DNA of 47,296 nt, taken from assembly GCA_937989675.1 (NCBI GenBank), contig CALKRK010000042.1, forward strand, positions 1 through 47,296, given 5' to 3'. Shown one piece after another: positions 13,279 through 20,708 of this stretch. The notes under the pieces were generated by a model, which saw only the letters and a list, made by a program, of their open reading frames with translations, was not told where the DNA came from and did not search any database. This DNA is from an uncultured Arenicella sp. (GTDB lineage: Bacteria; Pseudomonadota; Gammaproteobacteria; Arenicellales; Arenicellaceae). The position numbers and the translations under genes were made by a program. Position 1 is the stretch's first letter. Every line of letters begins with the position of its first letter.

Positions 13279-13869
13279 CTATGAACTTCCTTTATTCACA
13301 AAAAAGACATTATTTTGGGTATCGAGCTTAGGCGCAAGAGAGCTTGTCGCTCTCGCCGTTGACTTATCGCCCACCACCAAAATCAACTTATTCTTTAGCC
13401 GCTTATTCGCTTTCAGGTGCGCTGCAATCGCATAGGCGCGATCCAATGCGAGGCGTTCTGGGCTACGGTCCTTGGTGCGAATATTTGTACTCACATTAAT
13501 TTCAAAGGTCGGATTATTTGGTATCAGCTCAATCGCTGAGGCAATAAGGTTTAATTCTTCACTGCCCTCGGCCGACATCACCGACGAATCGGGCGCAAAA
13601 TCAATATGAAATCCCACCGGCTTTTCAGATTTGCGTTCCAACGCAGATTTGGTCGCCATACGCTCTTTGGAGTAACGCAGCTCTGTATCACCTGAGTTTG
13701 TATTTTTGCCGTGCTTGCCTACCGACACACCATCAACCACGATAACATAATCCTGATTGCTAACGGCTTGGTCACCAGTAGGTGGGCCAGACAATACAGC
13801 AGCCGGATGCCATAAAAAGCCTAAAGTCACGAAGCTAATTACGATGCCTCGCTGTGCAAAATCGAACAT
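13279..13869 (-). CDS. OmpA-like periplasmic protein, copy 1
   Basis: 196 residues with a probable signal peptide (hydrophobic residues 8-27, ending ...AAVLSG). The C-terminal half, about residues 90-190, matches the OmpA peptidoglycan-binding domain in shape: FHIDFAPDSSVMSAEGSEELNLIASAIEL, then a strand, then ERLALDRAYAIAAHLK, equivalent to the LSxxRAxxV helix. There is no beta-barrel or lipobox, so it would be soluble or peripheral. It shares its organisation and about half its C-terminal residues with the next gene, 99 bases upstream, which indicates tandem duplication. Confidence 0.7.
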   Translation of the reverse strand: MFDFAQRGIVISFVTLGFLWHPAAVLSGPPTGDQAVSNQDYVIVVDGVSVGKHGKNTNSGDTELRYSKERMATKSALERKSEKPVGFHIDFAPDSSVMSAEGSEELNLIASAIELIPNNPTFEINVSTNIRTKDRSPERLALDRAYAIAAHLKANKRLKNKLILVVGDKSTARATSSLAPKLDTQNNVFFVNKGSS

Positions 13870-13968: not shown

Positions 13969-14559
13969 CTAGCTGCCCTTGTTGACAAACAACACATTCT
14001 GATTGGTAGACGAGCTGGAACGCGCTGAATATCGGTTGTAGAGCCCAGGCCTAGTGCCACCAACCACAATTAACTCGTTCCTTAAACGGCGGTTAAGCTG
14101 CAAGTGCGCCACGATCGCACGTGCACGAGACATCGCAAGTTGTTCTGAGCGACGATCCTGACTATCTGTGTCTACGTGAATCTCGAAAGCGGGCCACCCG
14201 GGGATCAGTTCCATAGCAGAAGCGATTAAATTCAATTTAGCCTTGCCCTGCGCAGTCATTACCGACGACCCAGGTGCAAACTTAATATGAAATCCAACGG
14301 ATGGGTTTGTGGTATTTTCCAATGCACCCTTAATCGAGAGTCTGGTTTTTGGCGCTGAGCTAAGACCTTGCTTTACGGACACACTTTGATCAGAAGAAGG
14401 CTGCCGTTTGCCATACACAATCATGTCTTCAAGCACAATCACATCACTTTGCGAAAAGTCTGAAGAAAAATCGAGTTCACTTGAATGTGCAAATACAGGC
14501 AGGAACAAAGTCAGAAGCAGACCAAGCCCCGAGAGTGAGTCACGGTAGGGCATGTACAA
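13969..14559 (-). CDS. OmpA-like periplasmic protein, copy 2
   Basis: 196 residues (or 194 from the third codon, also ATG). Signal peptide is near residues 10-26 (LGLLLTLFLPVFAHS). Like its neighbour it has a middle segment SVGFHIKFAPGSSVMTAQGK followed by LNLIASAMELIPG and RSEQLAMSRARAIVAHLQ, the OmpA-domain helix. Both copies also share a ..VIVLEDMIVYGK/VIVVDGVSVGK segment after the signal peptide, so the whole gene was duplicated. A role in peptidoglycan anchoring is an inference from the fold only. Confidence 0.7.
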   Translation of the reverse strand: MYMPYRDSLSGLGLLLTLFLPVFAHSSELDFSSDFSQSDVIVLEDMIVYGKRQPSSDQSVSVKQGLSSAPKTRLSIKGALENTTNPSVGFHIKFAPGSSVMTAQGKAKLNLIASAMELIPGWPAFEIHVDTDSQDRRSEQLAMSRARAIVAHLQLNRRLRNELIVVGGTRPGLYNRYSARSSSSTNQNVLFVNKGS

Positions 14560-17527: not shown

Positions 17528-17848
17528 ATGAACAATATCCAACACACTTTTGCAGCGCTCGGAGATCAGACTCGTATGGCGATCATTGAGCGGCTGGCAC
17601 TCAATGAGATTTCATTGTCTGAATTGGCAGAGCCGTTTGCGATGTCGCAAACAGCGGTGAGCAAACATGTTCATGTGTTGAGCGAAGCCGGCTTAGTTGA
17701 AATTAGCAAACGAGGCCGAACACGCTACTGTCGACTAAAGCCAGAACCGCTTCGCGCTGCCGAAGAATGGCTCGAAACGTATCAACAATTTTGGTCAGAG
17801 CGATTTGAAAATTTGGCTACATTTTTAACTAAGGAGAAATCAGAATGA
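17528..17848 (+). CDS. ArsR-family winged-helix repressor
   Basis: 106 residues, typical size. The fold is seen in FAALGDQTRMAIIERLALNEISLSELAEP, the recognition helix MSQTAVSKHVHVLSEAGLVEI and the wing RGRTRYCRLKPEPL. No metal-binding ELCVCDL-type cysteines are present, so it is one of the non-metal ArsR regulators usually paired with an AHSA1 gene. Its stop overlaps the start of the following gene by four bases (ATGA). It probably represses its own operon and the divergent GST through the dyad upstream. Confidence 0.92.
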   Translation: MNNIQHTFAALGDQTRMAIIERLALNEISLSELAEPFAMSQTAVSKHVHVLSEAGLVEISKRGRTRYCRLKPEPLRAAEEWLETYQQFWSERFENLATFLTKEKSE

Positions 17849-18318
17849 ACCTACCCTTTTTAACCACACCTCAAGGGGAAGACCCAGTCATACTTGAGGC
17901 CGTATTTTCGACCAATGTCGAGCGCCTATTCCAAGCTTGGACGACCCCCGAAGATATTAAACAGTGGTTCGGTGCCGATGAAGGCGGCCCTGAACATGTG
18001 AGCATGCAAGTTGAAGTAGGCGGTACGTGGGAGTTCGTATTTTCAGAAAACGAAGGTAAGGTCGATAGCCTGAGCGGTGAATATCTGCGCATTGAGAAAG
18101 ATACGCTTCTCGAATTTACCTGGGTTCATACTCGAACCCTAGCAGATGGAAGTAGCGAGCAATCACCAGAATCGCTGGTTAGCGTTGCTTTTGAAGAGCG
18201 GCCATCAGGAGCATTTTCTCGATTGGTTCACAAATCAGTTATTAGCGATAGCAGCCGCTCCAATATCGGCGGCGGTTGGTCATCATCATTTACTAAACTC
18301 AAGGCGCTCACGGAATGA
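17845..18318 (+). CDS. AHSA1/SRPBCC-domain protein
   Basis: 157 residues of the activator-of-Hsp90-homologue SRPBCC type: VFSTNVERLFQAWTTPEDIKQWFGAD, VGGTWEFVFSEN, GEYLRIEKDTLLEFTWVH and a C-terminal helical closure SNIGGGWSSSFTKLKAL. A strong AAGGAG lies eight bases before the ATG although it is inside the ArsR gene. ArsR-AHSA1 pairs are very common; ligand and role are unknown. The stop overlaps the next start by four bases, so the three genes are translationally coupled. Confidence 0.9.
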   Translation: MNLPFLTTPQGEDPVILEAVFSTNVERLFQAWTTPEDIKQWFGADEGGPEHVSMQVEVGGTWEFVFSENEGKVDSLSGEYLRIEKDTLLEFTWVHTRTLADGSSEQSPESLVSVAFEERPSGAFSRLVHKSVISDSSRSNIGGGWSSSFTKLKALTE

Positions 18319-18623
18319 ACTACCAACAACTCTCCGAAAAAATGTCGGAATCTGAAGGCGTAGAACAGTCGACAATGATGGGCTCTCCCTGCTTACGTTA
18401 CAAAGGTGAGTTTGTGGGTATGATGTTCGAAAAAGAGCAGTCACTCATCGTTAAGGTATCGGCGCAGAGGGTAGATGAGATCATCGCCAACGGTGAAGGC
18501 AACGAGTTTAACTTCACCAAGAAACGGTTTAAGGAATGGGTGCTCATTCCTTTAGAATTTGAGGAACACTACGAAGCTTATTTGCAGGAAGCCATAGCCT
18601 ATGCAAAGTCAAAGATACGTTGA
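18315..18623 (+). CDS. Small TfoX-N/YjbR-like protein
   Basis: 102 residues, third gene of the ArsR operon. The pattern TMMGSPCLRYKGEFVGMMFEK, then a strand SLIVKVSAQRVDEII, then FKEWVLIPLEFEEHYEAYLQEAIAYAK is that of the small alpha/beta domain shared by TfoX N-terminal and YjbR/MmcQ proteins. I am not sure which of the two families it falls in. Members often accompany ArsR-AHSA1 genes. No enzymatic residues can be named. Confidence 0.6.
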   Translation: MNYQQLSEKMSESEGVEQSTMMGSPCLRYKGEFVGMMFEKEQSLIVKVSAQRVDEIIANGEGNEFNFTKKRFKEWVLIPLEFEEHYEAYLQEAIAYAKSKIR

Positions 18624-18723: not shown

Positions 18724-20016
18724 TCATGAGAGAGGGTCTAGCTTTTCTAAAGCGATTCTTAATTTATTGCCTTTGTGCGGGTTGAGTTGCGAAACGTAAT
18801 TTACGCGCCCCACCAAGTAGGCATAAAAATTACTGTGGCCATCGATATTTTGGCTCGCTAAACCGTGCCTTTCACAATTATGAATTATTGCTTTAAGTTG
18901 ATCGTAATATCGACGATCAATATTGGCTTTTTCGTTAACCACAACGCCAGTGATTTTTTGTCGTTGCGATTCCCTTGTGCGCCGAGTCTTACGGTGATTT
19001 AGCTCAAACCCTTCTTCAATACAAATTGAACCCACAAGCGGTTCAAGAAAAGACCAGTCACGTTCGACATTGCCAGAAAATGCCAAGTCGTCAGCATATC
19101 TCGAATAACTCAGTTTTAAGCTTTTTGCTAAACCGGCTAACCGCCTATCTAGTTGCAAACATACAGCGTTTGACAGCATTGGCGAAGTTGGCGCGCCTTG
19201 TGGTAAGTGTCTAAGCTGCGCTAAACGCCTTTCATGCTGACCTAGTTCTTTCGGCAAAATAGATTCGTGTGTAGCTTGGTGTGTACACAGACCAGCCAGG
19301 TGACGGCTAACGTGTTTGTTATAGCCCATGTTCAAAAATTGCCGATATACTTGATACCATGAAATACACGGAAAAAAGTGTTTTAAGTCAAAGGCAAACA
19401 CCAATACTTTCCCTACATGATGCGACGCGTGAGTTATGCAACTTCCACCCCGTCGGTACCCTTGCGCAGCAGAATCAATTGAAGCGTATCTAAGTATTTC
19501 GCTATTGATTTGCCTTTGCACATCTTTTAGTAGTCGTTTAGGCGATTCCAATAAACGAAATCCCCCTCGACGCTTGGGGATAACTTTATAGTGATAATGA
19601 TTTAAGTTACTTGCATCAGATTTATCTGCGCGCATTAAGCCCGCCAACCAGATTAGCTCACCGCGGCTCAATCCAAGCCAAGCCGCAAGGTCTGACTCAG
19701 TTTCCAGCCTGGGAAGAGGAAACGCAACCTCTGGCAGAACACGATTCGAGGCTAGGTTAAAGCGTGAGATTTTGGGCACGTTCTCTCGCCACCCAAACCA
19801 AGCCTTAATGTAAGCGTCTTCGCGCAAATGTTTTTCTAGGGCCTCTGAATCTGGCCGCACCGGAAATCGTAGCAACATTTTGTTAACTACCTTGTCGATA
19901 TCCGGCGGTAGATTTTCGACAACTTCGATAAATTTGGAGAGCAATGTTACATAACCCCAGGGGGATTCCATCCACCAATCTGAGAGAGACCGACAAAAAA
20001 GATTTTTACGATTCAA
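18724..20016 (-). CDS. Retron-type reverse transcriptase with long N-terminal extension
   Basis: 430 residues from a TTG at 20016, chosen because AAGGAG lies seven bases upstream; the first ATG is codon 16. Polymerase motifs: region X-like HYHYKVIPKRRGGFRLLESP (140-159), motif A aspartate D210 in FDLKHFFPCIS, LPQGAPTSP (271-279), the catalytic YADD (307-310), ITG355-357 where retrons carry VTG, and a terminal helical thumb. Where retron enzymes have NAxxH this one has HAxxH (196-200). The first 135 residues, including AAWLGLSRGELIWLAGL, precede the fingers and match no domain I recognise. No maturase or endonuclease domain is present, which argues against a group II intron. From memory it resembles the myxobacterial Mx162-type branch. 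Confidence 0.9.
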   Translation of the reverse strand: MNRKNLFCRSLSDWWMESPWGYVTLLSKFIEVVENLPPDIDKVVNKMLLRFPVRPDSEALEKHLREDAYIKAWFGWRENVPKISRFNLASNRVLPEVAFPLPRLETESDLAAWLGLSRGELIWLAGLMRADKSDASNLNHYHYKVIPKRRGGFRLLESPKRLLKDVQRQINSEILRYASIDSAAQGYRRGGSCITHASHHVGKVLVFAFDLKHFFPCISWYQVYRQFLNMGYNKHVSRHLAGLCTHQATHESILPKELGQHERRLAQLRHLPQGAPTSPMLSNAVCLQLDRRLAGLAKSLKLSYSRYADDLAFSGNVERDWSFLEPLVGSICIEEGFELNHRKTRRTRESQRQKITGVVVNEKANIDRRYYDQLKAIIHNCERHGLASQNIDGHSNFYAYLVGRVNYVSQLNPHKGNKLRIALEKLDPLS

Positions 20017-20078
20017 CTAACCACTCCTTGTCTAGCTTCATCGAGGCACACATTTACTCCAACTCAAAAATAAAAAGT

Positions 20079-20089
20079 GCAGCATTCAA
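20079..20089 (-). repeat. Retron a2 repeat
   Basis: Minus-strand TTGAATGCTGC, the exact inverse complement of the segment at 20222-20232. Pairing of the two would close the RNA and place the msd 3' end next to the branching guanosine. Confidence 0.75.
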
Positions 20090-20221
20090 CTCCAATATCG
20101 CGCGAACAGCCTTGCACGCAGTGCAATTGAGTTCTCGCTAGGTAAAACCTGAAATACAACGCCGTGGGGTAACCCCACAGCCCTCATTACTAGGTACTAA
20201 TTCTAAGTATTAAGGAATAGC

Positions 20222-20232
20222 TTGAATGCTGC
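20222..20232 (-). repeat. Retron a1 repeat
   Basis: Minus-strand GCAGCATTCAA, 11 of 11 complementary to 20079-20089. It begins at the expected transcription start of the candidate promoter at 20241-20246. Confidence 0.75.
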
Positions 20233-20240
20233 TGTTCTCT

Positions 20241-20269
20241 ATATTAGTCAGAAATCAAATATTTTCCAG
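20241..20269 (-). promoter_or_regulatory. Candidate promoter of the retron RNA
   Basis: On the minus strand a TAATAT -10 box (20241-20246) is preceded after 17 bases by CTGGAA (20264-20269), a poor -35. The predicted start, about seven bases after the -10, falls at the beginning of the a1 repeat. Confidence 0.4.
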
Positions 20270-20294
20270 CTATTTCACTTATAGGCTAATGACT

Positions 20295-20708
20295 CTATTG
20301 CACCTGGCCACATTGCCGAATCGCTAAACCCACCAATACGAACATTATCAGATCAATCAGCATAAAACCTTGAATCGCTGGAGTGTAGCTGCCGAAGGCA
20401 AACCCATCCAGCACGAGGCTCAGCAGGCGCCCAAATAGCACTCCACCGATCGTCATCAAGAAAACTATCAAGCCCACTTTGGTCGACAACTTGCCAAACA
20501 GAGACATGCCGAGCACAAGCGAAAACGCTAGAAAGAAGCCTCCGTATTGGCCGCGAACTTCGTTCAATGCGCTGATGCTATTAAGAGTAATATCCAGATT
20601 CGCCATCATCGCAGCCGGGCTTAGAGTAGCGCGCATAGCAATGTACAAGCCGGCGACAATACCGACAATAAGAACAATTTTTTGCAAAACAGTAGAAGAC
20701 TGAGTCAT
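20295..20708 (-). CDS. DUF4345 family membrane protein
   Basis: 137 residues with four membrane segments. The conserved NEVRGQYGGFFLAF, GRLLSLVLDGF and terminal helix IDLIMFVLVGLAI identify DUF4345, a four-helix inner-membrane family of unknown function. It is divergent from a TetR regulator 74 bases away, with a perfect 22-bp palindrome between, so it is the probable regulated target. Confidence 0.82.
   Translation of the reverse strand: MTQSSTVLQKIVLIVGIVAGLYIAMRATLSPAAMMANLDITLNSISALNEVRGQYGGFFLAFSLVLGMSLFGKLSTKVGLIVFLMTIGGVLFGRLLSLVLDGFAFGSYTPAIQGFMLIDLIMFVLVGLAIRQCGQVQ

Follow-up and report, generated by a model that had tools for sequence, protein, structure and literature searches.

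A reverse transcriptase (RT) gene that follows a short structured RNA in the genome of an uncultured Arenicella sp. raises the question of whether the two form a genuine retron and, if so, which effector they work with. The window analysed here is the whole 47,296-nucleotide stretch of contig CALKRK010000042.1, in which the RT gene occupies 18724-20016 of the minus strand and encodes 430 residues from a TTG start at 20016, comprising an N-terminal helical domain (residues 1 to ~85) and an RT core (~101-426). The GC content at the retron locus is 0.45, within a contig range of 0.44-0.50, the retron sits on a chromosomal contig, and the genome (80% complete, 288 contigs) holds a single match to this RT. 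A preliminary description of the DNA had named the locus a complete retron unit. In our view it is a retron without a linked effector gene, a reading to which we assign a probability of about 0.88, a figure that excludes its use.

The complete msr-msd ncRNA spans 20079-20232 on the minus strand, and its outline is as the preliminary description had drawn it: 154 nt, ending 62 nt from the RT start and bounded by a perfect 11-bp repeat. The msr 5′ end is formed by the a1 repeat GCAGCATTCAA (20222-20232, minus strand) and the msd 3′ end by the a2 repeat TTGAATGCTGC (20079-20089, minus strand), which pair at 11 of 11 positions, and the cDNA is predicted to start opposite 20090. The first base after a1, G20221 on the minus strand, is followed by a C, also as previously noted, and is the predicted priming (branching) G by analogy with known retrons (PMC6868368). 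Both of the strong hairpins reported earlier were recovered, namely the signature msr hairpin GCTGTGGGG-TTA-CCCCACGGC at 20181-20161, which is helix 5 of the family structure, and the msd hairpin at 20138-20100, found by folding and as helices 6 and 7, with a lower stem GCGAGAAC/GTTCGCGC and an upper stem TTGCAC-TGC-GTGCAA. The window RNA folds with an energy of -59.3 kcal/mol, compared with -41.1 ± 3.6 for shuffled sequences (z -5.0), and none of 200 shuffles is as stable.

The RT carries the YADD and ITG motifs that had been read from its translation. YADD (residues 307-310) is an intact catalytic-centre motif as far as sequence goes, with Y307, D309 and D310 invariant in all 47 family RTs compared and A308 nearly so, and ITG (residues 355-357), a VTG-like form of the region Y motif of retron RTs, has its G357 invariant in the same 47. 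Region X, which is NAXXH in retrons, reads HASHH here (residues 196-200), the last histidine being invariant (47/47) and the asparagine replaced, a departure also described for Mx65 and Ec48 (PMC6868368). Among PADLOC models, RT_other (2.7e-123, 411 bits) and RT_outgroup (5.8e-118) are the top two for the window RT, both being untyped retron RT models that match each of the 47 family RTs scanned, and RT_XIII comes third (1.4e-97, 326 bits). RVT_1 (1.7e-21) is the sole Pfam domain in the protein. By both sequence and fold, the closest solved RTs are those of Retron-Eco2 (Ec67; 6.7e-31) and Retron-Eco1 (Ec86; 1.4e-28), and when the AlphaFold2 (AF2) model, with a mean pLDDT of 91.8, was compared with the PDB using Foldseek, ranks 1-18 were all retron RTs, the first group II RT appearing at rank 19.

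These data bear directly on another reading, in which the enzyme would be of the DGR, group II or Abi type, a placement that the preliminary description had named as telling against a retron, and the structured leader beside it a coincidence. The window RT does match group II, Drt2 and Drt3a models, but below their cut-offs; the NCBIfam retron models are also below cut-off and score highest among the retron, group II and DRT models, and the PADLOC retron models score far higher still (411 bits for the best, against 40.5 bits for the NCBIfam group II model). Together with the fold ranking and with a covarying a1/a2 RNA that tracks the RT lineage (see below), this leaves such a coincidence with a negligible probability. 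From its sequence, fold and position in the tree, the window RT belongs among retron RTs, not among DGR, group II, DRT or Abi enzymes.

In order to place the enzyme among its relatives, we searched genomes at increasing distance. At E ≤ 1e-30 the RT has no match among 17 further genomes from the genus, three from the family or 79 from the order, and in the class-level scan 10 of 369 genomes match at E ≤ 1e-40, the window's own included. Scanning a genome collection with a seven-sequence alignment gave at least 538 relatives among at least 590 stretches, and from these at least 538 we retained the best 80 (L015-L094), with 36-48% identity over their best segment. The relatives come from Pseudomonadota (gamma, beta and alpha), Myxococcota, Planctomycetota, Acidobacteriota, Verrucomicrobiota, Gemmatimonadota and one Desulfobulbaceae genome, and their named hosts with isolates include Exilibacterium tricleocarpae, Hahella ganghwensis, and Paraburkholderia and Duganella strains. 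Plasmid records gave 21 RT matches at E ≤ 1e-30, three of which cover 80% or more of the query, all on Burkholderia replicons, and phage records gave four, none over 80% of the query. Viral contigs yielded none in a single-sequence scan and 194 with the alignment, the best 80 of which were kept and are at most 40% identical.

The preliminary description had named conservation and covariation of the repeat upstream of homologous RT genes as a test, and pairing is indeed kept across the family. In a comparison made without a shuffled control, the nearest relatives have a1/a2 repeats at the same place, with a different sequence and equal pairing, and in 77 of the 80 relatives a GGGG-N(3-6)-CCCC core lies no more than 900 nt 5′ of the matched part of the RT, a count likewise made without shuffling and weak alone in GC-rich genomes. 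From nine sequences we built an alignment of 38 base pairs (A3), in which 97.0% of cells are paired, compared with 26-47% in slid versions, and 19 of the 38 pairs have changed on both sides. In four of five measures A3 was equalled by none of 500 shuffles, the fifth, the number of pair types, being reached by 10 of 500. The covariance model built on A3 (R1), which gives 127 bits to the window RNA, itself one of the nine training sequences, finds the RNA in 77 of the 80 relatives at E ≤ 1; for the 72 relatives outside the training set, the count is 67 at E ≤ 0.01 and 69 at E ≤ 1. Each of the taxa listed above has at least one locus with a match at E ≤ 0.01. The three relatives without a match (L033, L036 and L093) nevertheless contain the GGGG/CCCC core. 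Among 30 Myxococcota loci, R1 finds a full-length RNA at E ≤ 0.01 in three (L175, L177 and L179, the first being the same place as L057), and it has no match at any of the 80 viral-contig RT loci or at L005-L010 and L014 (0/7). When run on whole genomes the model missed the genome of L047 although the L047 locus itself matches, so that absences in that mode are unreliable.

All R1 matches from the scan that covered the 80 relatives were then combined in an alignment (A4) of 106 rows, 104 of them distinct. Of these rows 84 are full and the other 22 are partial, the palindromic msd hairpin having been read there on the reverse strand. In A4, which is fitted to the structure and contains related sequences, 93.3% of cells pair, compared with 35-43% in slid versions, 34 of the 38 pairs show changes on both sides, and in all five measures none of 500 shuffles was as high. 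Changes on both sides occur at all 11 pairs of the a1/a2 stem (helices 1 and 2), as well as in msd helices 6 (7 of 8 pairs; 85.2% of cells paired) and 7 (6 of 6; 96.9%), and the msr hairpin (helix 5) is paired in 99.8% of cells. Covarying msd stems could also be seen by eye in 30 Burkholderiales sequences aligned without structure (A9), for instance GCATGAGC/GCTCACGC, GCAAGGGG/CCCCTCGC and GCAAGTGC/GCACTCGC. The A-C mismatch present in the msd stem of many Burkholderiales was considered as a conserved feature and discarded, as the stems are fully paired in many others. The RNA signature of the family is a CT-NN-GGGG-NNA-CCCC-NN-GG hairpin together with the a1/a2 repeats and the msd hairpin. 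In 69 of 77 loci the RNA ends no more than 64 nt from where the RT is predicted to start, and in the other eight at 74-1274 nt. Because the homologues keep this structure it is not due to chance, and, as judged from sequence, the locus is very probably a real retron consisting of an RT and a folded RNA template.

A promoter precedes the RNA. In the window the -10 box TAATAT (20246-20241, minus strand) ends 8 nt 5′ of a1, placed for transcription from a1 as had been proposed, and the -35 element is poor (TGGAAA), the best -35/-10 pair scoring 8 of 12. In 81 sequences, many of which come from a few related genera and so are not independent, the 60 nt preceding the RNA contain TTGAC in 55 cases, where mononucleotide shuffles lead one to expect 4.6, and the best -35/-10 score reaches at least 9 of 12 in 40, compared with 2.6% of shuffles. 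For pairs scoring at least 8, the commonest distance from the -10 box to the first base of the model is 12 nt. Much of the family has a sigma-70-like promoter before a1.

Retrons first came to notice through the msDNA of myxobacteria (PMC12548924), and several features invite comparison with these systems. PMC6868368 describes an extended RT N-terminus in Mx162, Sa163, Mx65 and Ne144, to which that of the window RT is likened by description, and considers vertical inheritance likely for Mx162/Sa163. The bases around the priming G differ, being CAGC or GAGC in these myxobacterial retrons and AAGC in the window. Within the family this position reads CAAGC in many relatives and CTGGT in the Granulosicoccus-type ones.

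In a quick tree of 86 RTs, all 40 rows with an R1 match fall inside one set of 48-49 rows (SH-aLRT 95 and 98). The same set also holds nine other rows, five without a full R1 match (L033, L036, L093, L176 and L182) and four with none at E ≤ 1 (L014, L180, L184 and L188). The R1 label is clustered on the tree (none of 500 shuffles gives so low a value), yet five changes are required, and so it does not mark one clean clade. The remaining 37 rows, all outside the set, are RT_XIII-like and viral RTs. Of the nine scanned RTs that lie just outside it, six match RT_XIII best (L178, L190, L192, L201, L008 and L010), and none of these six loci has a full-length R1 match at E ≤ 1. RT_XIII is the third-best model for the window RT, which on this measure does not belong to type XIII. 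Two further loci without an R1 match, L014 on an Actinomycetota plasmid (3526-3679) and L184 from Myxococcota, have long repeats of the a1/a2 type just before the RT, which span 154 and 161 nt, respectively; the L014 repeat region contains a CCAGCGGTAACCGCTGG hairpin. Both loci may carry the same RNA in a diverged form.

The preliminary description had also suggested that the RNA may be undescribed, and this holds in part. Rfam gave no match in the window at gathering score, and at E ≤ 10 its one match in 20000-20300 is to a miRNA family (E 9.5, 20045-20081) and touches only the last bases of a2; no retron family was found in an Rfam scan of 17 loci, mostly myxobacterial, and the RNA was not found in the literature searched. 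The RT clade, on the other hand, is already fitted by the PADLOC RT_other and RT_outgroup models. The entries for these models name no effector or type; to them our analysis adds an msr-msd family with its promoter, and the finding that no partner gene of at least 80 aa nearby is shared. Mestre et al. 2020 reportedly gave ncRNA predictions for retrons. Subject to comparison with the RNA models of PADLOC and Mestre, our contribution is to define this RNA family and to find no partner gene common to the lineage.

As regards the effector, 779 ORFs (≥80 aa, up to 5 kb on each side) were clustered around the 80 RTs. The RT itself clusters in 72 loci, and no partner gene of at least 80 aa within 5 kb is shared beyond eight of the 80 loci; these eight are all Burkholderia, so that it is the locus and not a system that they have in common. 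The next downstream ORF (≥100 aa) is on the RT strand in 36 of 76 cases, after leaving out L040 and L063, in which it is the remainder of a broken RT frame, and this is as expected without an operon. PADLOC on 76 downstream and 72 upstream neighbours gave scattered matches (for example JetD, Cas12f-like, Csx1), with no model matching more than two, and defence genes are rare beside the family RTs. In the Pfam listings, H-NS is the most frequent downstream family (5/76; 25 of 79 families listed), and UTRA and GntR are the most frequent upstream (3/72; 25 of 85 listed). In a B. pyrrocinia record, the genes flanking the RT code for an SDR oxidoreductase on one side and a D-Ala-D-Ala carboxypeptidase on the other. 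At two loci a gene lies between RNA and RT: in Singulisphaera (L064:3774-4970) an IS605 OrfB (TnpB/Cas12f-like) gene, dismissed as an effector since it matches IS605 OrfB transposase families, and in a Schlesneria MAG (L092:4569-4979) a 136-aa ORF with no Pfam match.

In an ordinary tripartite retron the toxin would be one of the two window neighbours, the DUF4345 protein (20295-20708) or the TfoX_N-like protein (18315-18623), or else a protein below 80 aa or encoded at an unlinked site. Typed retrons come with effectors, which can be membrane proteins, as in Ec48, and by eye hydrophobic stretches can be seen in the DUF4345 product. Neither neighbour matches PADLOC, however, the TfoX_N-like gene is on the strand opposite to the RT, and neighbours of at least 80 aa are shared only among the eight Burkholderia loci, so we set both aside as effectors and consider the tripartite arrangement rather improbable. 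No co-encoded or fused effector of the kind found in typed (I-XIII) retrons was detected among ORFs of at least 80 aa at the 80 loci or by Pfam on the RT. Retron-Eco2 and Retron-Eco1 differ in this respect, carrying a Toprim fusion or a separate effector, neither of which was found at the window. What stands of the complete unit described earlier is thus the RT and the msr-msd RNA; a linked effector gene was not found. Since no gene of at least 80 aa is shared, the next gene is on the same strand in only 36 of 76 loci and defence genes are rare, we describe a stand-alone retron family, present in several bacterial phyla, with no shared toxin gene of at least 80 aa nearby. Two retrons lacking the usual effectors are described in PMC12548924, so that effector-less retrons as such are not new.

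Two other features of the window may be mentioned. Beside the retron, 17528-18623 contains genes for an ArsR-type regulator, an AHSA1 protein and the TfoX_N-like protein; at E ≤ 1e-30 the AHSA1 neighbour was found only in the window's own genome out of 18 of the genus, and as the 17 others have no match, this may be an accessory region. Further away, two adjacent ORFs of 196 aa (13279-13869 and 13969-14559) are 46% identical over 171 columns, representing a tandem duplication of an unnamed protein.

With no partner gene in sight, attention turns to the N-terminal helical domain of the RT (19762-20016, minus strand; residues 1 to ~85), modelled with a mean pLDDT of 89.4. In 41 relatives this region is 8-35% identical to that of the window, against 34-48% for the whole RT, which marks it as fast-evolving. 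In the AF2 model these ~90 residues fold confidently as a separate unit. One could envisage a single-protein retron in which this domain is a built-in effector, or recruits one, and is held in check by msDNA, the comparators being RT-Toprim, RT-TIR and RT-protease fusions. Such a role would fit a similar-sized region in the window and all 41 relatives that is predicted to fold on its own, its low conservation relative to the whole RT, and the lack of a shared separate effector gene (≥80 aa, 80 loci). On the other hand, Foldseek found no PDB match for the domain at E ≤ 10, Pfam gave none for the window and, for one relative, only ABATE below cut-off (E 0.063), and none of the residues is invariant among 42 sequences, which argues against an active site. 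Profile comparison detected no homology of the N-terminus to those of five RT_XIII-like RTs or of L014, and a role in RNA binding fits the same data equally well. We thus consider a built-in effector unlikely, though less so than the tripartite arrangement.

The distribution of the family bears on a further explanation, a decaying or selfish retron that makes msDNA and has no function for the host. Presence is patchy, as seen in the 17 other genomes of the genus and in Paraburkholderia, the genus of L047, where the RT is found at E ≤ 1e-60 in 17 genomes out of 77, six of them with a copy that has an inner stop or is in pieces, some perhaps through assembly breaks. These two counts indicate that the retron RT is dispensable, and the lack of a partner gene also agrees with decay. 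Against this, an RT frame of at least 353 aa is open in 78 of the 80 relatives and compensatory change continues across the family, both of which point to long-term selection, and the window genome has one copy only. A retron without host function is in our opinion improbable, if somewhat less so than one with an ordinary toxin. The gene is rather an accessory one that persists, is lost and decays, yet its RNA structure is kept over large distances.

Returning to the retron without a linked effector, its product can be outlined by analogy with known systems. The RT would bind the folded RNA and prime from the 2′-OH of G20221 beside the a1/a2 duplex; copying would start opposite 20090 and proceed through the msd hairpin, giving a cDNA of ~50-75 nt, the RNA template would be trimmed by host RNase H, and a branched msDNA-RNA-RT particle would stay in the cell. 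On this analogy the retron very probably makes msDNA. Its use is a guess, to which we give somewhat less than even odds: since no toxin gene travels with the retron, the particle may sense phage or DNA metabolism and act via the RT N-terminal domain or host proteins encoded elsewhere, perhaps in phage defence like the retrons already studied. A role in defence would agree with the patchy distribution, but not with the absence of a toxin or with surroundings poor in defence genes.

The function of retrons has been demonstrated mainly for those with a linked toxin. The RNA signature, the covariance model and the isolate hosts make the question of a retron without effector directly testable in this family, and its compact msr-msd RNAs and RTs from several phyla are candidate tools for DNA production. 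More tentatively, the RT and the RNA may work alone across phyla, with the N-terminal domain or host proteins replacing the toxin and the msDNA particle being the acting unit. If true, this would be a retron mode distinct from the toxin-guarding tripartite model.
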